The position numbers were made by a program, and so were the translations under genes. From Pseudomonadota bacterium (GTDB lineage Bacteria; Pseudomonadota; Gammaproteobacteria; Burkholderiales; Rhodocyclaceae): a stretch of 64,000 nt of DNA. Numbering within the stretch: position 1 is the first letter of the stretch; the number at the start of each line of letters is the position of its first letter. The notes below the pieces were generated by a model. It made no database searches. It was given only the letters and a program-made list of their open reading frames with translations, and was not told the origin of the DNA. Positions 9,995 to 22,249 of this stretch are shown piece by piece. The stretch is from positions 1-64,000 of the forward strand of contig QQUN01000072.1 of NCBI GenBank assembly GCA_008501585.1. The letters run 5' to 3'.

Positions 9995-11398
9995 TCAGGC
10001 GGCGCGCGGCGCGGTCAGCACATCGGGGCGCAGCGCGTCATCCAGTTGCTGTTGCGTCATCAAGCCTTTTTCGAGCACCAGCTCGGCGACACTGCGCCCG
10101 GTGCGCAGCGCTTCGCGCGCGGCCCAGGTGGCATGCTCGTAGCCGATATGCGGGTTCAGCGCGGTGGCCAGACCGGCGGAGCAGCGGACGCGTTCGGCCA
10201 GCAGGTCGACGTTGGCGGTGATGCCGACCACGCAATTGTCAGTGAGCGTGCGGCAGCCGGCGGCCAGGTGCTCGATGCTCTTGAACAGCGAGTGGGCAAT
10301 GATCGGCTCGAAGGCGTTGAGCTGCAGCTGGCCGGCTTCGGAGGCCATGGTGATGGTCATGTCGTTGCCGATGACCTCGAAGGCGATCTGGTTGACCACT
10401 TCGGGGATGATCGGATTGACCTTGCCCGGCATGATCGACGAGCCCGCCGCGCGTTCGGGCAGGTTGATCTCGTTGAAGCCGGCCTGCGGCCCGGAGGAGA
10501 GCAGGCGCAGGTCGTTGCAGACCTTGGACAGCTTGCAGGCCACGCGCTTGAGCACGCCCGACAGCTGCACGAAGGAGCCGGTGTCCTGGGTGGCCTCGAT
10601 GAGGTTGTGGGCGGGCACCAGACGCACACCGGAGAACTCGGACAGCAGCTCGGTGGCGAGCTTGGCATAGCGGATGTCGGTGTTGATGCCGGTGCCGATG
10701 GCGGTGGCGCCGAGGTTGACCTCCTGGATGAGGGCAATGGCCTCTTCCAGGCGCGCCATGTCCTCATTGACCATGATGGCGTAGGTCATGAACTCCTGGC
10801 CGAGGGTCATCGGCACCGCGTCCTGCAACTGGGTGCGGCCCATCTTCAACACCTTGGCGAACTCGGTCGCCTTGGCCGAGAAGGCGTCGTGCAGGGCCGC
10901 CATCGCGGTGAGCAGTTCCTGAATGGCAAAAACGATCGCCAGCTTCAGCGTGGTCGGATACACATCGTTGGTGCTCTGCGCCATGTTCACATGGTTGAGC
11001 GGGTGCAGGGCCTTGTAGTCGCCCTTGCCGCGGCCGAGCTTCTCGAGCGCCAGATTGGCAATGACTTCGTTGGCGTTCATGTTGGTGGAGGTGCCGGCGC
11101 CGCCCTGGATGACGTCCACCACGAACTGGTCGTGCAGATGGCCGCCCTCGATGTCGCGGCAGGCCGCGGCGATGGCGTCGGCGCGGGTGTCGTCCAGATG
11201 GCCGAGCTGGCGGTTGGCCTCGGCGGCGGCGCGCTTGACCAGCGCCAGTGCCTTGATGAGTTCGGGGTAGGTGCCGATGTGACGGCCGGTGATCTGGTAG
11301 TTCTCGATGGCGCGCAGGGTGTGGATGCCCCAGTAGGCATCGGCCGGGACGTCGCGGTCGCCGAGCAGATCGTGTTCAGTGCGGGTGGTGTTGGACAT
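9995..11398 (-). CDS. aspA: Aspartate ammonia-lyase
   Basis: The 467-residue protein aligns along its length with E. coli AspA as I recall it, beginning MSNTTRTEHDLLGDRDVPA. The fumarase/aspartase signature GSSIMPGKVNP is intact, as are GGAGTSTNMNANEV and MGRTQLQDAVPMTLG. It splits L-aspartate into fumarate and ammonia in the cytoplasm. The start chosen gives the family N-terminus; an in-frame ATG ten codons earlier is possible. It lies 74 bases downstream of a LysR gene on the same strand, near a symporter and a racemase that would supply L-aspartate. Confidence 0.93.
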   Translation of the reverse strand: MSNTTRTEHDLLGDRDVPADAYWGIHTLRAIENYQITGRHIGTYPELIKALALVKRAAAEANRQLGHLDDTRADAIAAACRDIEGGHLHDQFVVDVIQGGAGTSTNMNANEVIANLALEKLGRGKGDYKALHPLNHVNMAQSTNDVYPTTLKLAIVFAIQELLTAMAALHDAFSAKATEFAKVLKMGRTQLQDAVPMTLGQEFMTYAIMVNEDMARLEEAIALIQEVNLGATAIGTGINTDIRYAKLATELLSEFSGVRLVPAHNLIEATQDTGSFVQLSGVLKRVACKLSKVCNDLRLLSSGPQAGFNEINLPERAAGSSIMPGKVNPIIPEVVNQIAFEVIGNDMTITMASEAGQLQLNAFEPIIAHSLFKSIEHLAAGCRTLTDNCVVGITANVDLLAERVRCSAGLATALNPHIGYEHATWAAREALRTGRSVAELVLEKGLMTQQQLDDALRPDVLTAPRAA

Positions 11399-12646: not shown

Positions 12647-14002
12647 ATGACCGGACATCACTCGGCCCCATCGCGCGGCGTATTCGCGTTCTGGAAGGGC
12701 ATGCAGCTGTGGAAGCAGATCTTCATCGCGCTCGTCGCCGGACTGGTAATCGGCGTGCTGCTGAACCAGACGGGCAACGCAGACATCGCCAAGAGCATCA
12801 AACCGCTGGGCGATCTATTCATTCGCGGCATCAAGATGCTGATCGTGCCGCTGATCTTCGTGTCGTTGGTCACCGGGGTGGCGTCGCTGCAGAACCTGGC
12901 GACCATGGGGCGGCTCAGCTTGAAGACGGTGGCGCTCTACCTCGCGACGACCGCGGTGGCGATCTCCATCGGCCTCGGGCTGGCGGTGGTGTTCGAGCCG
13001 GGGGTGGGCGTTGACCTGGGGTCGGCCAAGGCCGTGACCGCCAAGGAGGCGCCGAGCCTGATCGACATCCTGCTTGGCGTGGTGCCGACCAATCCGGTCG
13101 AGGCGCTGGCCACCGGTAACGTGCTGCAGATCATTGTCTTCGCGATCCTGTTCGGCCTGTCCATCACGCTGGCCGGCGACGCCGCCAAGCCGGTGCGCGC
13201 CTTCTTCGAATCCGCCGCCGAAGTGGTGTACAAGCTCACCTCGGTGGTGATTTCGTTTGCCCCCTACGGCGTGTTCGCGCTGATGGTGTGGGTGGCGGGT
13301 ACCTACGGTATGGACGTGCTGGCGCCGCTGGCGAAAGTCATCGCCATGGTCTATCTGGGGTGCTTCGTGCACGCCATGGTGGTGTATGGCGGCATGATCC
13401 GCCTGCTGGCCAGGCTCAATCCGGTGCGTTACTTCCAGGGCAGTATCGAGCCGGTGATGGTGGCCTTCACCAGCACGTCCAGCTCGGGCACCTTGCCGGT
13501 GACCATGATGGCGGCCGAGCGCAACCTGGGCGTGCCGCGCAGCGTGTCGAGCTTCGTGCTGCCGCTGGGTGCGACCATCAACATGGACGGCACGGCGCTG
13601 TACCAGGGCGTGTGTGCGGTATTCATCGCGCAGGCCTACGGGGTGGATCTGAGTTCCGGCCAGTTCATGACCATCGTGCTGACGGCCACGCTGGCCTCGA
13701 TCGGCACGGCAGGTGTGCCGGGCGCCGGCCTGATCATGCTGTCGCTGGTGCTGGCCTCGGTCGGTCTGCCGCTCGAAGGCATTGCCATCATCGCCGGTAT
13801 CGACCGCGTGCTCGACATGGCGCGTACGGCCCTGAACGTGGCCGGCGATTGCGCGGTCAGCGTCACCGTGGCGCGCAGCGAAGGCCAGCTCGACCAGGAC
13901 GTGTATGACACCGCCCATGTGTTGCGGGCCGACGACCTGGGCACGTCGGCGACGGGTGAGCATGCTGGCCCGGTCACCGAAACGGCACGGGCCGTGTCGT
14001 AA
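12647..14002 (+). CDS. Dicarboxylate/amino acid:cation symporter (DctA/GltP family)
   Basis: The 451-residue membrane protein belongs to the DAACS (GltPh/DctA) family. Hallmarks are the serine-rich hairpin FTSTSSSGTLPVTM, the transport motif INMDGTALYQ and a C-terminal VAGDCAVSVTVAR with the substrate-binding Asp. About eight membrane segments and two re-entrant loops are expected. ATG 12647 follows AGGAG at 12636-12640. Given neighbouring aspA and the racemase, the likely substrates are aspartate, glutamate or C4-dicarboxylates taken up with protons or sodium. It is divergent from its probable LysR regulator. Confidence 0.88.
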   Translation: MTGHHSAPSRGVFAFWKGMQLWKQIFIALVAGLVIGVLLNQTGNADIAKSIKPLGDLFIRGIKMLIVPLIFVSLVTGVASLQNLATMGRLSLKTVALYLATTAVAISIGLGLAVVFEPGVGVDLGSAKAVTAKEAPSLIDILLGVVPTNPVEALATGNVLQIIVFAILFGLSITLAGDAAKPVRAFFESAAEVVYKLTSVVISFAPYGVFALMVWVAGTYGMDVLAPLAKVIAMVYLGCFVHAMVVYGGMIRLLARLNPVRYFQGSIEPVMVAFTSTSSSGTLPVTMMAAERNLGVPRSVSSFVLPLGATINMDGTALYQGVCAVFIAQAYGVDLSSGQFMTIVLTATLASIGTAGVPGAGLIMLSLVLASVGLPLEGIAIIAGIDRVLDMARTALNVAGDCAVSVTVARSEGQLDQDVYDTAHVLRADDLGTSATGEHAGPVTETARAVS

Positions 14003-14091: not shown

Positions 14092-15603
14092 ATGAACGGA
14101 ATCAAGCTTGTGGCGCATCACGAATTCATGGATCAGAAAAAACGACGTTTCGGTATCGTCGGTGGGCTGGGCGCCCTGGGGGGCGCCGATGTCTTGCTGA
14201 AGATGATCCGGACCGCGCAGCGCAGTGCCAGCCTGAACGGCACCGACATCGCTTTCGAGCAGCGGCATTTCGGCGAGGGCGCCATCGTGGCCGACGGCAA
14301 CTACGACCCGACGCGCCGCAAGTTCTATGTCTACAACGCGCTCAAGGACATGGAGGCGCGCGGGATCGACACCGCACTGGTGCCGTGCTTTCTGTCGCAT
14401 ACCTTTCTGCGCGAGATCACGCCGGAGGTCGCGCTGCAGGTGGTCAGCGTTTTTGATGCCCTGCGCCGGCAGTTCGCCACCGAGCTGGCCGGGGTGCGCA
14501 AGATTGGCGTACTCACCTCGACCTACCTCAAGCGCACGGGCATCTTCGAGCGCGAACTCGGCCAGTTTGCGCAGATTGTCTATCCGGACGACGACACGCA
14601 GGCCAACACCGTCATGCAGGCCATCTACGGAGCCAACGGCGTGCGGGCCGGGCACCACGGTGGCGAGTGCCTGCAACGCTTGCTCGACGCCTGCCTGCAC
14701 CTGATCGATGCCGGGGCCGAGGTCATCGTGCCCGGGATGACCGAAATCCCGGTGCTCATCGACTCGTTGCGTCCGCTCGTGCCGGTGCCGCTGCTCGATT
14801 CGAATCTGCTGTATGCCGAATACGCGCTGGGGATCGATGCCGCCGCACCGCAGCGGGAGTTCAAGCTTGGCGTGGTCGGCGGTGTTGGCCCCGCGGCGAC
14901 GGTCGACTTCATGCGCAAGGTGGTCAAGCTGACCACCGCCGCCCGCGACCAGGACCACATCAAGATGGTGGTGGAGCAAAATCCGCAGATCCCCGACCGC
15001 ACCGCCAACCTGATCGGCAGCGGCGATGATCCGACCATTCCCTTGCTGGCCACCTGCATGCGCCTCAAGTCGGACGGCGCCAACGCCATCGCCATCCCCT
15101 GCAACACCGCGCATGCTTATGTCGACCGGATCCAGCCCTATCTGGACATCCCGATCGTCAACATGCTGTCTGAAGTGGTTCGCCATATTCGCGAGACCCT
15201 GCCCGGCGTCAGCCGGGTCGGCCTGCTGGCTACGTCGGGGACGGTCGCCAGTGGCGTGTACAAGAGCGTCGTCGAGGCCTCCGGGCTGACACTGGTGGTG
15301 CCGGACGCGGTATTTCAGGAGCGCGTGATGGCGTCGATCTACGGCGCCAAGGGTGTCAAGGCCGGTTTTACCTCGGGCGAATGCGCCGCGCACCTGGCCG
15401 CGTCGATCGCACACCTGCAAGCGCAAGGCGCCGAGGTCGCGGTGCTCGGCTGCACCGAGCTGCCACTCATCGAGCTGGCCGCTGCCGACGAAGCCCGCTT
15501 GCCCCTGATCGATCCCACCGCGATTCTGGCCGGCTGCTGCGTGGCGCTGGCCACCGCATCGCGTGAAGGCGATCCCGCAACGACGCCGGCCGGGGTCGCC
15601 TGA
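14092..15603 (+). CDS. Double-domain aspartate/glutamate racemase family protein
   Basis: At about 503 residues this is twice the usual racemase length and consists of two tandem Asp/Glu racemase domains (about 18-245 and 257-490). The second has both catalytic Cys, in AIPCNTAHAY (337) and LGCTELPLI (454). The first keeps one in VPCFLSH (99) but has Met216 where the second Cys belongs (PGMTEIPVL), so it is probably inactive or altered. Racemisation of D- and L-aspartate would feed aspA. The start is uncertain: ATG 14092 or 14128; neither has a good ribosome-binding site. Confidence 0.8.
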   Translation: MNGIKLVAHHEFMDQKKRRFGIVGGLGALGGADVLLKMIRTAQRSASLNGTDIAFEQRHFGEGAIVADGNYDPTRRKFYVYNALKDMEARGIDTALVPCFLSHTFLREITPEVALQVVSVFDALRRQFATELAGVRKIGVLTSTYLKRTGIFERELGQFAQIVYPDDDTQANTVMQAIYGANGVRAGHHGGECLQRLLDACLHLIDAGAEVIVPGMTEIPVLIDSLRPLVPVPLLDSNLLYAEYALGIDAAAPQREFKLGVVGGVGPAATVDFMRKVVKLTTAARDQDHIKMVVEQNPQIPDRTANLIGSGDDPTIPLLATCMRLKSDGANAIAIPCNTAHAYVDRIQPYLDIPIVNMLSEVVRHIRETLPGVSRVGLLATSGTVASGVYKSVVEASGLTLVVPDAVFQERVMASIYGAKGVKAGFTSGECAAHLAASIAHLQAQGAEVAVLGCTELPLIELAAADEARLPLIDPTAILAGCCVALATASREGDPATTPAGVA

Positions 15604-15639
15604 CGCCGGACCCCGTGATCGGTTGGGCGGTTCGGCGGC

Positions 15640-17073
15640 TTACTGCCAGTCGCTGACCGCCTTCACCTCCAGGAACTCCTCCAGCCCCCACTCCCCGCCT
15701 TCGCGGCCGTTGCCGGATTGCTTGTAGCCGCCAAAGGGCGCGCCGGCGCCGAGCGGCTGGCCGTTGACCTCGATCATGCCGGCGCGCAAGGCGCTGGCGA
15801 CGCGCTTGGCGCGGGCCGGGTCCTGCGTCTGCACATAGTGGGTGAGGCCGTAGGGGCTGTCGTTGGCGATGGCGATGGCTTCGTCTTCGGTATCGAAGGG
15901 GATGATGCTGAGCACCGGGCCAAAGATTTCCTCGCGGGCGATGGTCATGCTGTTGCGCACGTCGGCGAACACCGTGGGGCGCACGAAGTAGCCGGTGTCG
16001 TGGCCTTCGGGCTTGCCCGGGCCGCCGGCGACGAGGCGGGCGCCTTCGTCGATGCCGGCCTGGATCAGGCGCTGGATCTTGTCGAACTGGGCGGCCGAGA
16101 CCACCGGGCCGATGTGCGGGCCTTCCTGGCCGGGTTGGCCGACGGCCGTGCCGCGTGCCACTTCGGCGGCGGTGGCGACGGCCTGCTCATAAATGCTGCG
16201 CTCGACCAGCATGCGCGTCGGTGCGTTGCACGACTGGCCGGAGTTGTTGAAGCAGCGGCGCACGCCACGCACCACGGCTTTCTCATCCGCATCGGCAAAG
16301 ATCAGGTTGGCGCCCTTGCCGCCCAGCTCCAGGCTGACGCGCTTGACGGTGTCGGCGGCGTTCCTGGAGATGGCGATACCGGCGCGGGTCGAGCCGGTGA
16401 AGGAGATCATGTCCACGTCCAGATGGCCCGACAGCTGCGTGCCCACGCCGGCGCCGTCGCCATTGACGAGGTTGAACACCCCGGCCGGGAAGCCGGCGGC
16501 GGCGATCATCTCGGCGAACAGCATCGAGGACAGCGGGGCGATTTCCGAGGGCTTGAGCACCACCGTGCAGCCAGCGGCCAGCGCGGGCACGACCTTGAGC
16601 GTGACCTGGTTCATCGGCCAGTTCCACGGCGTGATCAGGCCGCACACGCCGATCGGCTCGTAGCGGATGCGGGTGTTCGGCGCGTGTTCGCCCAACGTGC
16701 GCTCGAAGGCGAAGCTGCGCGCCGTGCGCAGGAAACTCTTGATGTGGCCGGCGCCGGCAGCGGCCTGGGCAGCCTTGGCGAGGCTGATCGGTGCGCCCAT
16801 CTCCTGCGAGATGGCCGCGGCCATCTCGTCGGCGCGTTCGGTGTAGATGCGCAGCAGGGTGTCAATGTGGCTCAGGCGTGCGTCTAGCGGCGTGTCGCGC
16901 CAGGCCGGGAAGGCGGCGCGGGCGGCGGCGACGGCGGCATCGGTGTCGGCGGCGCTGCCGAGCGAGATGACGGCGCAGGCGGCCTCGGTGGCGGGGTCGA
17001 TGACTTCAAGATCGTGCGCGACGGCGGGGGCGACCCAGCGGCCGTTGATGAAGAACTGGCGTTTGTCGAGCAT
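15640..17073 (-). CDS. NAD(P)-dependent aldehyde dehydrogenase
   Basis: A complete 477-residue ALDH-superfamily enzyme. The catalytic Cys is in NNSGQSCNAPTR and the general-base Glu in LELGGKGANL; the Rossmann part shows ITPWNWP and SFTGSTRAG; the C-terminus has FGGYKQSGNGREGG. It oxidises an aldehyde to the acid; the substrate cannot be read from sequence. It is the last gene of a four-gene minus-strand operon led by the acetylene-hydratase-like enzyme, whose expected product, if it hydrates a terminal alkyne in the same sense, would be an aldehyde. Confidence 0.88.
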   Translation of the reverse strand: MLDKRQFFINGRWVAPAVAHDLEVIDPATEAACAVISLGSAADTDAAVAAARAAFPAWRDTPLDARLSHIDTLLRIYTERADEMAAAISQEMGAPISLAKAAQAAAGAGHIKSFLRTARSFAFERTLGEHAPNTRIRYEPIGVCGLITPWNWPMNQVTLKVVPALAAGCTVVLKPSEIAPLSSMLFAEMIAAAGFPAGVFNLVNGDGAGVGTQLSGHLDVDMISFTGSTRAGIAISRNAADTVKRVSLELGGKGANLIFADADEKAVVRGVRRCFNNSGQSCNAPTRMLVERSIYEQAVATAAEVARGTAVGQPGQEGPHIGPVVSAAQFDKIQRLIQAGIDEGARLVAGGPGKPEGHDTGYFVRPTVFADVRNSMTIAREEIFGPVLSIIPFDTEDEAIAIANDSPYGLTHYVQTQDPARAKRVASALRAGMIEVNGQPLGAGAPFGGYKQSGNGREGGEWGLEEFLEVKAVSDWQ

Positions 17074-17174
17074 GGGCGGATTCTCTCGTTCGGGGCGTTG
17101 TTGTGCCGAAGGCGCGCGTGGCCGTGTTGGCCGGGCGTGCCCGGGGCGGTGACAGAGCGGACAGCTTACAGCGC

Positions 17175-17924
17175 CTAGGCGTTTCGAGGCTTCAGGAAGG
17201 CCGAGATGGCCGTCTGCGCCGGTGCTTTTCCGAGCAGCGCGAGAAACGCCTTCTCCTCGCGATCGATCGTCTCCAGCACGCTCGCGCACCGCGGTGCCTT
17301 CATGAGTTTCTTGCTTTCCTGAACGGATTCGGGCGGCAGGGCGGCCAGGCGCGCGGCATGGTCCATGGCCTCGACGATGGCCTGACCATCGCCGACGACG
17401 GCGGTGAGCAAACCCGCGTCAGCGGCTTGCTGGGCGCTGAACGGCTCGCCCAGCAAAAGGATTTGCGCCGCCCGCTTGTCGCCGGCGACCTGGGGCAGCC
17501 ACAGGCTGGACGCGCCCTCGGCACACACGCCGAGCTTGACGAATGGCGCGGCGAAGCGCGTGGAGGCGCCAGCGAACGCAAAATCGCAATGTCCGAGAAT
17601 GGTCGTGCCGATGCCGATCGCGCAGCCTTCAACCGCCGCGACGATGGGCTTGAAACAGCGTGCGGCCGCACGAAACAGCCGCATGGCCAGCAGTTCTGCG
17701 GGCTGCGGCACGAAGTCGGTAAGGTCGTTGCCGGCGGTGAAGTAGCCGCCGCTGCCGTGCAGGACGATGACCCGGATGTCGGGGTTCGATGCGGCCGAGT
17801 CGATGGCATCGGCCAGCTGGAGGTACATCTCGCCGTTAAGCGCATTGCGGTGGGAGGGGCGGTTGAGGGTCAACTGCAGGATGCCGTCGGCCTCGGAGCG
17901 AAGGATCAATGGGGTGTCTGTCAT
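17175..17924 (-). CDS. Enoyl-CoA hydratase/isomerase family protein
   Basis: A 249-residue crotonase-fold protein. The oxyanion-hole regions are visible as GSGGYFTAGNDLTDF and AVEGCAIGIGTTIL, and CAEGASSLWLPQVAG carries one conserved acidic residue. The GNDLTDF motif is more typical of delta3-delta2-enoyl-CoA isomerases than of true hydratases, so isomerase activity is possible. It lies between the MaoC and aldehyde dehydrogenase genes of the same operon, with gaps of 57 and 101 bases, implying CoA-thioester chemistry in the pathway. Confidence 0.82.
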   Translation of the reverse strand: MTDTPLILRSEADGILQLTLNRPSHRNALNGEMYLQLADAIDSAASNPDIRVIVLHGSGGYFTAGNDLTDFVPQPAELLAMRLFRAAARCFKPIVAAVEGCAIGIGTTILGHCDFAFAGASTRFAAPFVKLGVCAEGASSLWLPQVAGDKRAAQILLLGEPFSAQQAADAGLLTAVVGDGQAIVEAMDHAARLAALPPESVQESKKLMKAPRCASVLETIDREEKAFLALLGKAPAQTAISAFLKPRNA

Positions 17925-17981
17925 GGTGAATGCCTGAAGCGATGAAAAAAGAGTCGGATCAAGAGGGGGACCGTCTGGCCA

Positions 17982-18440
17982 CTATGGCACAAAGCGCTTG
18001 ACGACCAGGTTGGCGATGAAGGTCTGGACCACTTTTCCGTCCTGGTTGGTGGTGGTGATACGCAGCTTGAGCATGCCTTGCTCCGGTCGCGATCTGGACG
18101 GTCGTACCTCGAGGACTTCGGACTCGGCCTCCAGAACATCGCCGGGGCGCACGGGCGCGGGCCACTGCAGCGACTCCACGCCGGCGCCGATCACGCCGCC
18201 GGCCGGGCGGAAGGCGCTGTCGACCAGCAGCCGCATCGTGAGTGCGGCGGTGTGCCAGCCGCTGGCGGCCAGGCCCTGGAACAGGGTGTCCCCGGCCTGT
18301 GTGTCGTCGAGGTGGAAGGGCTGCGGATCGAAGTCGGCGGCAAAGCGCTTGATGGCGTTTGCGTCGATCTCGAGTCGGCCGGAGCCGAATGTCTGTCCGA
18401 CGGTGAAGTCTTCAAGGTACTGGCTTAATGGCAAGGGCAT
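17982..18440 (-). CDS. MaoC-like hydratase (hot-dog fold)
   Basis: A 152-residue single hot-dog domain protein of the MaoC family. It starts MPLPLSQYLEDFTVGQTF, has FAADFDPQPFHLD with the hydratase Asp and His, and ends with NQDGKVVQTFIANLVVKR. Such proteins add water to enoyl-CoA or act as thioesterase-like partners. ATG 18440 is preceded by AAGGAG only two bases away, so translation may be weak or coupled to the upstream gene 40 bases before it. It is the second gene of the operon. Confidence 0.82.
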   Translation of the reverse strand: MPLPLSQYLEDFTVGQTFGSGRLEIDANAIKRFAADFDPQPFHLDDTQAGDTLFQGLAASGWHTAALTMRLLVDSAFRPAGGVIGAGVESLQWPAPVRPGDVLEAESEVLEVRPSRSRPEQGMLKLRITTTNQDGKVVQTFIANLVVKRFVP

Positions 18441-18480
18441 GGCTCCTTTTTGATCGTGTCGGTTGGACGCTGCCGGATCC

Positions 18481-20691
18481 TCAGGTTTCCTGATCGGCAC
18501 AGCGCCGCACGCGGCAGGCGACGCCGCGCAAATGGGGGATGCCCTGTTCCTGGTCGAGATGCGCCGGGTCGTCGGGCGAGATCTGTGCATCGGCATGATC
18601 CCGGGCACCGCTCAGGCTGCCGTCGCCCTCTGCCCGCTCGGGCAGCCACCAGCCGTGCGGTACGCGGACCACGCTGCGCGGCATGTCGGTGCGGATGTCG
18701 GTTCGCAGCCGGACCCGGCCCTGGGGCGTTTCCACGTAGGCCCAGTCGCCAGCGGCGAGATTCAGGGCCGCGGCATCGTCGGGTGCAATGAACATCTGCG
18801 GCTCGGGGTTGCGTGCCCTGAGCGAGGCGATGTGCCGGTGCCCGGTCTGGAAGTATTCGTCCTCGCGAACGCCCATGAACATGGTGAGCGGATAGTCGGC
18901 ATGCGGTGCCGGATCGTCCCGCCAGTAGGGCAGGCTGTCGAAGCCCATGTCGCCGAGCACGCTGGCGCTGAGCTCGACCTTGCCGCTCGGTGTGGCAAAG
19001 CCGGTGGTTTCGTACTTGCGGTACTGCGGCGTGTGCATGTGGTAGGGGTGCTTCTCGGCAAAGGTGGCGAAATCCATGCCGAGCTTGTGCACACGGTAGT
19101 CGAGCAGCGCCTCGTTGCTCTCCCACGGGAAGTGCGTGCCGAGACCCATCCGGTGGGCGAGATCGCGCCAGAAGTCATAGGCCCCGCGGCATTCGCCCGG
19201 CGGCGCGACGGCCTGTTGCGAGGGCCGGTAGATCGCCGTCCAGCCGAAGCTGTCCGACAGGGCGTTGCGCTCCAGCCAGGCGTCGCCCGGCAGCACATAG
19301 TCGGCAAGCTGGGCGGTGGGGGTGCGAAAGTGTTCGAAGGCGACAACCAGATCCTGGTTGAGGATCGCCCGTTCCATCAGCTGCATGTTGGCGAAGCTCA
19401 TCAGGGTGTTGTTGCCGAGGCTGAAGAAGGCCTTGACCGGATAGGGGGCGCCTTCGGCCATGGCGCGGAACACCGCGCTGGGCGTGGCCATCATGCCGCC
19501 GCTGACGATGTTCGGCCAGTCGTGCCCCCACACTCGCCGGCTGGCCGCCTTGAGCGCGCTGGCGGCGCGGTAAGTGAAGGCCGGATGCGCGTCGGCGCCC
19601 AGTTGCTTCGCCTGCTGGGCGGCCGGCAAGGCGTCGTGCATCTCGAGTTCGGATTCGCTGACGATATCGGGGTGAAAACCGTGCAGCAGTTCGCCGCCGG
19701 GGACGTCCAGGTTGCCGCAGATGGCGCGCAGGGTGCACATCAGGCGGATCGCCGAGGTCGAATTGCGCTGCTGGTCGGTCACCGGGGTCCAGGGAATGAC
19801 GGCCGGGGAGCTGCCGGCATACAGGCGCGCGGCCTGTGCGATCAGCTCGGGATCGACCCCGGTGAGCTTTGCCACGCGCGACAGGGGAAAGGCGTCGACA
19901 CGCTGGCGAAGGGCGTCGAAGCCGGTCGTCCAGCGGGCGACGAAATCCGCGTCGTAGCGTCCCTCGTCGAGAATGACCTTGAGCCAGCCAAAGCACATGG
20001 CCGCGTCGCTGCCGGGCTTCAGTGGCAACCACAGGTCGGCCCGCTCCGCGCTCTCGCTCTTGCGCGGATCCATCACGATCAGCTTGGCGCCCCGGTCCTG
20101 CGCACGGCGGATGGCGTTGTAGATCGGGGTCCAGGAGTGCTGTTTGGGGTTGTGCCCGAACAGCGCGATGCAGTGGGTCTGGGTGTAGTCGGGGAAGGGG
20201 TACCAGCCGTAGACCAGGCGGTTGACCGCGGCCGTGTTGCCGGCACACAGCGCCACGCCGCTGATCCAGTTCGGCGAGCCGAGCAGGTTCATGAAGCGGC
20301 GACAGGCGCCATTGTCGGTCTGGGTGTTCCAGGGCGAGGTCGACACCGCCAGCGCCTCCGGCCCATGGGTGTCGACGATCGTCTGAAGCCGGTCCGCGAT
20401 GTCGCTCATCGCGGTCTCCCAGCTGACGGTTTCCCACTGGCCGGCGCCGCGCGGGCCGACCCGGCGAAGCGGTTGCATGATGCGCTTGGGGTGGCTGAGC
20501 CCCTCCGGCGCATGCACGCCCTTCATGCAGATGTTGGCCTTGAGCGGGCGCGGGTCGATGGCCTTGACCCGGACGTCGCCAACCCGGCCCGATGCGGGAA
20601 TCTCGACGTTGACCTGACAGTAGATGTCACACCCCGAGCACAGCGCGCGCACCGTGCCGACCGTGGGATTCTGACCGCTGACTCGATTCAT
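18481..20691 (-). CDS. Acetylene hydratase-like molybdo/tungsto-enzyme (DMSO reductase family)
   Basis: The 736-residue protein has no Tat signal and is probably cytoplasmic. Cluster ligands Cys18, Cys21, Cys25 and Cys55 have the same spacing (x2, x3, x29) that I recall for Pelobacter acetylene hydratase (Cys9, 12, 16, 46), and Asp22 directly follows the second Cys, as the catalytic Asp13 does there. Cys149 in ALCAGNTAAVN matches the metal ligand Cys141 within one position, and FMNLLGSPNW, LADYVLPGDAWLER and DQEQGIPHLRG also resemble that enzyme. A non-redox hydration of an alkyne or related bond is inferred. Divergent LysR upstream; three catabolic genes downstream. Confidence 0.75.
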   Translation of the reverse strand: MNRVSGQNPTVGTVRALCSGCDIYCQVNVEIPASGRVGDVRVKAIDPRPLKANICMKGVHAPEGLSHPKRIMQPLRRVGPRGAGQWETVSWETAMSDIADRLQTIVDTHGPEALAVSTSPWNTQTDNGACRRFMNLLGSPNWISGVALCAGNTAAVNRLVYGWYPFPDYTQTHCIALFGHNPKQHSWTPIYNAIRRAQDRGAKLIVMDPRKSESAERADLWLPLKPGSDAAMCFGWLKVILDEGRYDADFVARWTTGFDALRQRVDAFPLSRVAKLTGVDPELIAQAARLYAGSSPAVIPWTPVTDQQRNSTSAIRLMCTLRAICGNLDVPGGELLHGFHPDIVSESELEMHDALPAAQQAKQLGADAHPAFTYRAASALKAASRRVWGHDWPNIVSGGMMATPSAVFRAMAEGAPYPVKAFFSLGNNTLMSFANMQLMERAILNQDLVVAFEHFRTPTAQLADYVLPGDAWLERNALSDSFGWTAIYRPSQQAVAPPGECRGAYDFWRDLAHRMGLGTHFPWESNEALLDYRVHKLGMDFATFAEKHPYHMHTPQYRKYETTGFATPSGKVELSASVLGDMGFDSLPYWRDDPAPHADYPLTMFMGVREDEYFQTGHRHIASLRARNPEPQMFIAPDDAAALNLAAGDWAYVETPQGRVRLRTDIRTDMPRSVVRVPHGWWLPERAEGDGSLSGARDHADAQISPDDPAHLDQEQGIPHLRGVACRVRRCADQET

Positions 20692-20842
20692 GGTGTTCTC
20701 TCCAGTCGCTGTGCGCCACCGGTCGGCCCGTCAGTTCCGTGGCGGCGGGGGCGGGCTGTCCGATCCGGCGCGCGTGCCGTGGGACGCGTGGAAGGTGTGC
20801 GGCGATTGTGGCGGTGGGCCGATGCACCGGCAAATCATTTAA

Positions 20843-20858
20843 TATGGCGTACGCTATA
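20843..20858. promoter_or_regulatory. LysR-type palindromic operator in divergent promoter region
   Basis: TATGGCGTACGCTATA is a near-perfect palindrome around GCGTACGC and fits the LysR T-N11-A pattern. It lies 14 bases before the LysR start and about 150 bases before the divergent hydratase gene, in an AT-rich patch unlike the flanks. It is the most likely autoregulatory and activator site of this pair. Confidence 0.55.
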
Positions 20859-20871
20859 GTTTTTCTATGCC

Positions 20872-21780
20872 ATGAACCGATATCCCCCTCTCAAAGCACT
20901 GGTTGTGTTTGATGCTGTTATGCAGAGCGGCAGTTTTTCTCTTGCGTCGGAGGCGCTGTGCGTGACCCCCGGCGCGGTCGGGCAGCAGATTCAGAAGCTG
21001 GAAGAATGGCTGGGTGTCGCCTTGTTCATCCGTCGGGTTCGGCAAGTGCAGCCTACCGAGGAGGCGAAAAAGTACTGGCAACGGATCCAGCCGGCCTTGG
21101 TGCTGATTGCCGACACCAGCCAGAAAGTCAGGGCCAGTCGACGGATGGCGGTGTCGTTATCCATGCCGCCGACCTTTGCCGCCAAGTGGTTCACCGGCCG
21201 AATGGCGCGATTGCTGACCCAGCATCCGGAACTCGAGTTGCATCTGAACGCGTCGATGGTGGCGGTAGACTTCGAGCGCGAATCCATCGATCTGGCGGTT
21301 CGCTACTTCGCGGAGCCCAATCCCGACCTCGATGCCACCCTGTTGTTCAAGGATTCGGCTCATGTCTATTGCGCGCCCGATTACGCGAAGACGTTTGCAC
21401 TGGGAGCCGCGGATGATCTGGTGCGCGCCACGCTGCTGGTGACGTCCATGCATCCCCACTGGCACGAATGGCTCGGCGCATTCAGCGGCATCGGTGAGGC
21501 GCGGATGGCCGCCATCCCGCGCATCCACTTTGACCAGTCGTTGATGGCGATCGAAGCAGCGAAGCAGGGGCAAGGGGTGATCATGACCAGTCCGCTGCTG
21601 GTCGAAGCCGAGGTCAACGGCGGGGCACTGATTGCGCCATTCCCATCCTTTTTGCCGCTTGCCAGTGGTTACTACGTGGTTCATCACCGCCAGCTCGACC
21701 TCCGACCGGCTGCCGCAGTGGTCAAGCAGTGGTTGATCGATGAGGCAGAGGACGGGGCATTGCTGCCGGTTGGCGCCTGA
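20872..21780 (+). CDS. LysR-type regulator (GcvA-like) of the hydratase operon
   Basis: A 302-residue LysR protein of the GcvA-like group: it begins MNRYPPLKALVVFDAVMQSG and its helix-turn-helix contains SLASEALCVTPGAVGQQIQ. The effector domain has the LAVRYFAEPNPDLDA segment typical of the group. It is transcribed away from the acetylene-hydratase-like operon, separated by 180 bases that hold a palindromic LysR-type site, so it is the likely regulator of that operon. The inducer is unknown. Confidence 0.87.
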   Translation: MNRYPPLKALVVFDAVMQSGSFSLASEALCVTPGAVGQQIQKLEEWLGVALFIRRVRQVQPTEEAKKYWQRIQPALVLIADTSQKVRASRRMAVSLSMPPTFAAKWFTGRMARLLTQHPELELHLNASMVAVDFERESIDLAVRYFAEPNPDLDATLLFKDSAHVYCAPDYAKTFALGAADDLVRATLLVTSMHPHWHEWLGAFSGIGEARMAAIPRIHFDQSLMAIEAAKQGQGVIMTSPLLVEAEVNGGALIAPFPSFLPLASGYYVVHHRQLDLRPAAAVVKQWLIDEAEDGALLPVGA

Positions 21781-21847
21781 GGGGCGAGCACCGGCGGCCT
21801 GCCGGCGTGCGGGCCACCGGCGCAAGGCCGCCCGTGACGCAGCCGGC

Positions 21848-22249
21848 CTACAGCGACTGGCTGTCGATGAAGCGCGCTTCCTGCGTGCGGCCGCCAAAGC
21901 CCCAGGCGTCGGCGCGCACATCGTCGATGACGATGTAGCTGGCCGGATCGAGCCCGGGCAGCAGCGCGGCCAGATCGTCGAACACGCGCCGCAGGTAGAC
22001 CGCTTTTTGCGCCTTGGTGTTGGTGCCGTCGGTGATCTTCACGTCCAGGTGAAAGGCGCTGCGGCCGGTGTCGGCGAGGCGGACGCCACCGATGCGCCAG
22101 CGGCGCGGATCGACGAATTCGACGGTGACCGAGGTGACTTCCGGCTTCTTGCCGAGCAGGGCGGTGGTGTGCTCGAGCAGCACGGCGCTGGTGCGCTCGG
22201 CGAGCGTGTCCGAGGCTTCGGCCGCGAGGCGCAGGTGCAGATAAGGCAT
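21848..22249 (-). CDS. Tautomerase-superfamily protein (4-OT/CHMI-like)
   Basis: A 133-residue protein starting Met-Pro, which exposes the catalytic N-terminal Pro after Met removal. Two beta-alpha-beta halves are visible, the first (PYLHLRLAAEASDTLAERT) and the second starting near FHLDVKITDGTNTKAQKAV, as in CHMI-like or fused 4-oxalocrotonate tautomerases. It would catalyse keto-enol tautomerisation; the substrate is unknown. It is the last gene of the doxX-GST-tautomerase operon, 47 bases after the GST gene. Confidence 0.75.
   Translation of the reverse strand: MPYLHLRLAAEASDTLAERTSAVLLEHTTALLGKKPEVTSVTVEFVDPRRWRIGGVRLADTGRSAFHLDVKITDGTNTKAQKAVYLRRVFDDLAALLPGLDPASYIVIDDVRADAWGFGGRTQEARFIDSQSL

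Follow-up and report, generated by a model that had tools for sequence, protein, structure and literature searches.

An acetylene hydratase subfamily protein with an altered substrate pocket encoded in a LysR-linked operon of a Rhodocyclaceae bacterium

The 64,000-nucleotide stretch analysed here (contig QQUN01000072.1, assembly GCA_008501585.1, a Rhodocyclaceae bacterium), hereafter the window, carries a divergent LysR gene and a minus-strand operon of four genes encoding an acetylene-hydratase-like metalloenzyme (AHL), a MaoC-like hydratase (MaoC), a crotonase, and an aldehyde dehydrogenase (ALDH). The AHL belongs to the acetylene hydratase subfamily within the dimethyl sulfoxide reductase (MopB) superfamily and is not an ordinary oxidoreductase. 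It retains the catalytic residues of acetylene hydratase, whereas its substrate pocket is altered, and the alteration runs through the whole group of close relatives to which it belongs (the window clade). Judging from these features, there is about an even chance that AHL hydrates a carbon–carbon multiple bond in some compound bigger than acetylene, feeding acyl-coenzyme A (CoA) metabolism.

Family membership of AHL

In a phmmer search of solved structures, the best match of AHL was the acetylene hydratase of Syntrophotalea (Pelobacter) acetylenica (2E7Z, EC 4.2.1.112) with 675.8 bits over residues 16–728, and the E value of 7.2e-202 excludes a chance likeness; the next-best relative, a thiosulfate reductase, reached 199.3 bits. 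AHL and 2E7Z are 43.8% identical across 717 residues (BLAST) and are alike in fold, cluster motif, catalytic residues, and connector. A cofactor-free AlphaFold2 model of AHL (mean predicted local distance difference test score (pLDDT) 74.3, predicted template modelling score 0.82, pLDDT below 50 at residues 146–149) matched 2E7Z in Foldseek with a template modelling (TM) score of 0.89 and an E value of 2e-66, the runner-up being formate dehydrogenase (TM 0.72). Among the best 25 of 27 NCBIfam models, AHL matched distant oxidoreductase names only, all below cut-off.

A tree of 40 rows placed the window clade (25 rows) as sister to 2E7Z with a fork support of 100/97, and a Rhodococcus opacus plasmid protein (locus L043) joined next (100/99). 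The same grouping was obtained in a second tree of 38 rows (forks 99/96 and 100/99). Thirteen paralogues with 30–36% identity fell outside the clade of AHL, 2E7Z, and R. opacus, and the AHLs nearest to the window protein were those of Comamonadaceae. The branching order of 2E7Z and L043 is less sure, because both have long branches. The 38-row tree omits L019, L026, L028, L012, and L040, which are truncated, split, or partial, as well as the complete L046 and L047 (the same genes as L079 and L080, which are not in it either), and the second piece of the split L012 gene was left out of both trees. This AHL gene of Paraburkholderia sp. C35 (L012:9989-12157) is divided into two open reading frames (ORFs) by a frameshift or a sequencing error.

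The segment 327–393 of 2E7Z is the connector between domains II and III, which is rearranged in the acetylene hydratase subfamily. By sequence comparison, the window AHL is 38.8% identical to 2E7Z in this segment; 25 rows of the acetylene hydratase clade (with L043, without truncated rows) average 40.6%, the lowest being 25.4%, and 12 paralogues average 13.7% (range 9–16.4%). The original prediction for this locus had placed AHL with acetylene hydratase. The bit scores (676 vs. 199), the TM score, and both trees agree with this placement, and neither tree set AHL apart from acetylene hydratase, the two sharing a supported clade.

Active site and substrate pocket

The [4Fe-4S] cysteines of AHL, C18, C21, C25, and C55, correspond to residues 9, 12, 16, and 46 of 2E7Z, with the spacing x2, x3, x29. 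Asp22 directly follows C21 and aligns with Asp13 of 2E7Z, Cys149 aligns with the metal ligand Cys141, and Lys48 is kept as Lys57; Trp179 and Trp293 are retained as well. The cluster spacing and the positions of Asp22 and Cys149, first proposed from the sequence alone, were confirmed by the alignment with 2E7Z, which also identified the two Ile positions at which Trp121 and Ala150 had been said to stand as Ile113 and Ile142.

Residues were counted over the window clade in 30 rows pooled from two alignments, using readable rows only; L019 and L028 are without the Asp13 region, and position 113 of L019, the start of which does not align, was left uncounted. Asp13 was kept in all 28 readable rows; none of the 13 paralogues has it, the residue at this position being His, Gly, Tyr, Phe, or Gln. 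This residue has been described as specific to the acetylene hydratase subfamily (PMC12096430; this and the other PMC sources are cited from excerpts). Cys141 and Trp179 were each found in 29/29 rows and Trp293 in 30/30, and Cys141 is not discriminating, because the 13 paralogues carry Cys too.

The hydrophobic ring of acetylene hydratase, which comprises Ile14, Ile113, Ile142, Trp179, Trp293, and Trp472, is kept at three of its six positions in AHL, while Ile113, Ile142, and Trp472 are replaced by Trp121, Ala150, and Phe482 (Trp484 lies two residues from Phe482). The pocket further differs from that of 2E7Z at Tyr139 and Met140, where AHL has Ala147 and Leu148. Across the window clade, position 113 is occupied by Trp in 25 rows, Ala in two, and Gly in one (n = 28), position 139 by Ala in 24, Ser in four, and Asn in one (n = 29), and position 142 by Ala in 24, Ser in two, and Met in three (n = 29), with Ile at neither 113 (0/28) nor 142 (0/29) and Tyr in 0/29 at 139. 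Since the changes run throughout the clade, Trp121 and Ala150 characterise the clade as a whole and are no peculiarity of the window protein. Another pocket type, with Gly14 and Tyr140, occurs within the window clade in L022, L023, L029, L114, L115, and copy 2 of the AHL in genome G901.

According to a review, a pocket variant of acetylene hydratase with an Ile-to-Ala exchange showed a marked loss of activity, and neither ethylene nor nitriles nor derivatives of acetylene are turned over by the enzyme, which has been obtained in active form with an N-terminal fusion (PMC6013536). On account of this activity loss, acetylene is an unlikely substrate of AHL as far as its sequence can tell. The exchanged residue is presumably Ile142, the passage of the review giving no number. 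The doubt about acetylene that had been raised for the window protein is therefore supported and extends to the whole clade, in which Ile142 is lost in 29/29 rows and Ile113 has become Trp in 25/28.

It is quite unlikely, on the same grounds, that AHL is a genuine acetylene hydratase whose acetaldehyde is turned to acetate by the ALDH, with MaoC and the crotonase as unrelated passengers. Such an enzyme would fit the clade shared with 2E7Z, the retained catalytic residues, the ALDH within the operon, and the other ALDH that precedes an AHL in G901, and aerobic acetylenotrophs do exist (PMC7858054). However, neither Ile142 (29/29 lost) nor Ile113 (28/28 readable rows lost) survives in the clade, and in acetylene hydratase an Ile-to-Ala pocket exchange markedly lowers activity; MaoC and the crotonase lie inside the operon; the ALDH falls far under the cut-off of the acetaldehyde dehydrogenase model ExaC; and the relative in R. 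opacus, a species for which growth on acetylene is reported, has a pocket nearer to that of acetylene hydratase.

This relative (L043), encoded on plasmid pRop44186_a of R. opacus DSM 44186, is 42.7% identical to AHL, has the same catalytic residues, and is accompanied by crotonase and CoA-transferase genes within 8 kb. Unlike AHL, it carries Ile113, Tyr139, Leu142, and Trp472, branches outside the group of 2E7Z and the window clade, and has ferritin-like, ferredoxin, and MoeZ genes after it and transposase genes in the vicinity. It is a candidate aerobic molybdenum acetylene hydratase. DSM 44186 is probably one of the Tuebingen acetylene isolates; its record gives Tuebingen as the source, and no paper on it was found. 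Aerobic growth on acetylene by means of a molybdenum-dependent enzyme has been reported for R. opacus (PMC7858054). The original prediction had considered an oxygen-tolerant betaproteobacterial hydratase pathway of this type new; an acetylene hydratase relative in an aerobe has, by itself, a precedent in print.

Organization of the operon

The features of the locus are as follows.

18481..20691, minus strand: AHL, acetylene-hydratase-like bis(molybdopterin guanine dinucleotide) (bis-MGD) metalloenzyme, 736 aa, assigned by sequence search, trees, and fold match
17982..18440, minus strand: MaoC-like hotdog hydratase, 152 aa, 40 bp after AHL
17175..17924, minus strand: crotonase, 249 aa, with a delta3-delta2-enoyl-CoA isomerase-like active site
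15640..17073, minus strand: aldehyde dehydrogenase (ALDH), 477 aa, final gene of the operon
20872..21780, plus strand: LysR-type regulator, 302 aa, divergent
20692..20871, no strand: divergent control region, 180 bp

The gaps between AHL, MaoC, crotonase, and ALDH are 40, 57, and 101 bp, all on a single strand. The genes lie at the predicted positions, and the observation as a whole was confirmed, while codon use favoured later starts for ALDH (17073 over 17289) and MaoC (18440 over 18608) than those first given. The gene caller placed the LysR start at 20920; the start at 20872 was retained, because it and its leader agree with the relatives in L070 and L071. A near-palindrome, TATGGCGTACGCTATA, lies at 20843-20858 in the control region and is absent from L070 and L071, while the adjoining LysR leader is conserved with both. 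The region 15400-21900 yielded no match to the sigma-70 promoter consensus.

Three of the 13 MaoC regions fetched (L068, L070, and L071) have a LysR gene (63–67% identity) and a MaoC gene (68–70%) without an AHL, with a thioesterase or major facilitator superfamily gene between the two, and the LysR and MaoC pair looks older than the operon. No relative of AHL (above 37% identity) or of the crotonase (above 48%) was found in the 296 other family genomes searched, for which reason these two genes were probably acquired from outside. Both results would also suit an operon assembled by chance, in which AHL, crotonase, and ALDH were added to the older pair without a common pathway. Such an origin is improbable in view of the tight spacing on a single strand and the recurrence of an AHL beside a same-type crotonase in G901.

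Crotonase, MaoC, and ALDH

The crotonase looks like a delta3-delta2-enoyl-CoA isomerase in sequence. Its best NCBIfam model is PRK06023, below cut-off, as is the case for the G901 crotonase. Thr and Phe stand at the two positions that in rat enoyl-CoA hydratase hold the catalytic residues Glu144 and Glu164; the crotonase of L023, by contrast, has both Glu. A Glu is found in the AEGASS of the isomerase motif region APFVKLGVCAEGASS, at the place of the Glu in the PF..LG...EG.SS motif of delta3-delta2-enoyl-CoA isomerases. Among solved structures, the best match was 6lvo, named an enoyl-CoA hydratase (211 bits), and human ECI2 (2f6q) scored 116 bits. The G901 crotonase is 40% identical to that of the window with the same isomerase-like letters, and the crotonase behind the AHL of L011 is 30% identical, with Asp replacing the isomerase Glu. 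Of the earlier proposal that MaoC and an enoyl-CoA hydratase imply CoA chemistry, the link to CoA stands, but the name of hydratase does not, the hydratase glutamates being absent and the protein isomerase-like.

MaoC has the D-x4-H hydratase motif of MaoC-type enzymes in the form DPQPFH, and its best solved relative is 3exz (155 bits). The best solved relative of the ALDH is 3i44 (662 bits). Against ExaC the ALDH scored 325 bits (cut-off 900), and it reached the cut-off of no specific model among the best 25 of 41. A plasmid-borne relative of the ALDH with 68% identity is preceded by genes for an acetolactate-synthase-like protein and a CoA transferase.

Neighbourhoods of AHL relatives

The original prediction had proposed looking for the four-gene set in other genomes, and it was not found at the other loci examined. 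An ALDH or MaoC above 80 bits was absent from the 22 loci of a pattern scan, and neither family appeared in a neighbour grouping of 26 AHL loci (the 22 pattern-scan loci, L079, L080, L043, and the window, with flanks of at most 10 kb and often shorter). Conversely, no AHL-clade gene was present in 19 MaoC loci with flanks of about 1.5 kb, drawn from the MaoC matches present in 117/297 genomes; in two of them, a protein some 935 aa long matches AHL at 25%.

A crotonase gene lies near AHL in 8/26 loci and an acyl-CoA ligase gene in 7/26 (the window's own ligase is 14 kb away), followed by family III CoA-transferase (5/26), DsbA-like (4/26), one short-chain dehydrogenase/reductase (SDR) group (3/26), and thiolase (3/26) genes; the Pfam run on the neighbours excludes L015, L114, and L115. 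The proposal that the product enters CoA chemistry gains support from the CoA genes near AHL in several genomes. Some members deviate from this picture, such as L023, whose AHL has amidohydrolase and DAHP synthase genes as neighbours.

The most telling neighbourhood is the cluster of G901, in which two AHL genes of differing pocket type (L102 and L103) are found together. Its order is ALDH, a gap of 185 bp, AHL copy 2, DsbA-like, SDR, ligase, periplasmic binding protein, flavodoxin-like, TetR, MarR, and AHL copy 1 (L103), followed 55 bp later by the crotonase with the isomerase-like motif. Copy 1 resembles the window AHL in its 73% identity, in Trp/Ala/Ala at positions 113/139/142, and in the crotonase next to it, but no MaoC was found beside it, and it lies near the ligase, SDR, and DsbA-like block and the second AHL, which has Gly/Ala/Ala. 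The DsbA-like, SDR, ligase, binding-protein, flavodoxin, and MarR genes of G901 are 54–85% identical to those surrounding the AHL in Paraburkholderia L012, and a ligase (63%) and a binding protein (72%) related to those of G901 lie upstream of the AHL in Variovorax L011. The G901 ligase exceeds the cut-off of the acyl-CoA synthetase subfamily PRK08162. Two ligases of this type, with 49–50% identity, are encoded in the window genome, both on other contigs, so that activation by CoA is possible but not linked to the operon.

Electron partners

No ferredoxin-motif gene was found within 4 kb of AHL in any of 25 window-clade loci, of which L017, L020, L022, L026, and others have short flanks; the scan excludes L102-L104, L114, and L115. 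Outside the clade, 5/14 loci have such a gene (R. opacus, Rhizobium and Caballeronia paralogues, and two family paralogues). Acetylene hydratases, both reference and putative ones, are reported to have, with a single exception, genes for Fe-S proteins almost next to their own (PMC7858054). The window differs from the reference genes in having no such gene beside AHL and in an operon with MaoC, an isomerase-type crotonase, and an ALDH. The absence of a ferredoxin gene would suit an enzyme that needs no electron partner of its own, although it does not prove this.

This bears on another explanation, by which AHL kept the scaffold of acetylene hydratase but not its reaction and is a redox or other group-transfer enzyme such as a hydroxylase, dehydratase, or dehydroxylase. 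Redox chemistry is the rule in the superfamily, acetylene hydratase being the sole non-redox Mo/W enzyme (PMC12096430), and a flavodoxin-like gene lies close to AHL in L012 and G901. A distant relative, the metallopterin-dependent ergothioneine synthase of Caldithrix abyssi, has an N-terminal module related to acetylene hydratase (27%) and forms a C–S bond, although it is fused to a cysteine desulfurase, unlike AHL (PMC9516567). We regard this explanation as somewhat unlikely, given the lack of nearby ferredoxin-motif genes in the 25 loci, some with short flanks, and the conservation of the subfamily-specific Asp13 in the clade but in none of the paralogues.

We set aside the molybdenum "Michael hydratase" MhyADH of Alicycliphilus as a possible closest analogue, as it has the architecture of the molybdenum hydroxylase family, with molybdopterin in the large subunit and separate FAD and [2Fe-2S] subunits (PMC4052635).

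Proposed function

We propose that AHL may act as a bis-MGD (Mo or W) and [4Fe-4S] enzyme that adds water in a reaction with no net change of redox state. Water and substrate would be activated by Asp22 and the metal in its reduced form, in line with proposals for acetylene hydratase, and the exchange of Ile113 for Trp121 and of Ile142 for Ala150 may shift the free space of the pocket and suit a longer or branched substrate. The hydration product, or an aldehyde formed later, could be oxidised to an acid by the ALDH, and the acid could be activated with CoA by a ligase encoded elsewhere. The isomerase-type crotonase would then move a 3-ene to the 2-position and MaoC would hydrate it, the carbon entering beta-oxidation, while LysR may induce the operon, with the substrate or an intermediate as the signal. 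A larger substrate linked to CoA metabolism is suggested because CoA genes lie near AHL in several genomes and the AHL-crotonase and ALDH-AHL pairs occur in G901.

Several points weigh against this proposal. The function of the window clade is a prediction from sequence, the acetylene-type pocket is represented by two sequences only (2E7Z and R. opacus), and the structure model against which the orientation of Asp22 towards the metal would be judged contains no cofactor and is weak at residues 146–149. The numbers of crotonase and ligase genes near AHL are raw counts, ALDH and MaoC are not conserved neighbours of AHL, and the window clade, without a nearby ferredoxin gene, departs from the context of the reference acetylene hydratases. 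In L014, a phosphatase and glycosyltransferases adjoin AHL with no CoA gene, and L026 and L027 share some of these. Overall, the first reading of the locus is supported as to subfamily membership, the placing of Asp and Cys, both pocket changes, and a suspected non-acetylene substrate tied to CoA. It is not supported as to the four-gene set, which none of the other loci examined showed, or as to a crotonase that acts as a hydratase.

Distribution

A pattern scan of genome contigs, one genome per species over 84,980 species, detected at least 22 AHL relatives with 53–76% identity, a lower bound because exact peptides were needed. Their hosts include Comamonadaceae, Paraburkholderia, Albimonas, gammaproteobacteria such as HTCC2143, and metagenome-assembled genomes (MAGs) of Alphaproteobacteria, Myxococcota, and Gemmatimonadota. 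In the taxon samples, which count the window's own genome, AHL matches occurred in 10/297 genomes of the family at E 1e-100 (all but the window's at 37% identity or less), 3/369 of the class at 1e-130, and 4/335 of the order at 1e-150, and 2E7Z as the query matched 3/398 of the phylum at 1e-110. None of nine other genomes of the window's genus had an AHL at E 1e-100. Four plasmid records carry AHL relatives (E ≤ 1e-60), each below 60% identity. Hydrogenophaga palleronii has a copy of the AHL gene, and that of Variovorax WS11 sits on a megaplasmid contig. The rare and patchy occurrence, together with this megaplasmid location, points to a spread of the AHL gene by transfer. Several MAG names among L014-L030 resemble those of sponge-symbiont projects, a guess from the names only; sponges make polyacetylenes.

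Other genes in the window

The ORFs at 14092-15603 (plus strand), 12647-14002 (plus strand), and 9995-11398 (minus strand) belong to a region with an ORF that has two aspartate/glutamate racemase stretches (PF01177) and exceeds the cut-off of the cysteate racemase CuyB. Dicarboxylate-transporter-like, LysR, and fumarase/aspartase-like genes, named by reading the sequence, lie near it, perhaps for the use of D-aspartate. Just behind the LysR gene of the operon, a small tautomerase-superfamily protein (21848-22249, minus strand) shows a weak PF01361 match. Members of this superfamily hydrate alkynes.

Significance

Acetylene hydratase relatives in aerobes and a broad acetylene hydratase family are already in print (PMC7858054, PMC10100899), and the proteins similar to acetylene hydratase are described as biochemically uncharacterised (PMC12096430). 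No study of the window clade was found in the open-access literature, most subscription papers lying outside the search, and the excerpt of PMC13101534, on a benzene-activation cluster, mentions acetylene hydratase and has nothing on the clade. The family is thus known, and its sequences indicate that the window clade differs by its pocket.

Acetylene hydratase is described as the only known Mo/W-dependent enzyme with a non-redox reaction, and there is dispute over how it works (PMC12096430). Because the window clade is a sister group that shares the catalytic residues but not the pocket, it offers natural variants with which mechanism could be separated from substrate choice. As a bolder proposal, which we put forward tentatively, the window clade may represent a second class of water-adding bis-MGD enzymes for triple or double bonds of larger unsaturated acids or alcohols. 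If so, compounds such as the acetylenic lipids of plants, fungi, and sponges, which would block beta-oxidation, could be turned into ordinary keto or hydroxy acids, and the two pocket types of G901 would belong to a pair of hydratases that differ in the position or the substrate on which they act. The addition of water to alkyne and alkene bonds is also of practical interest (PMC6013536), and the window clade may reveal an oxygenase-free bacterial route for alkynes or unactivated alkenes.

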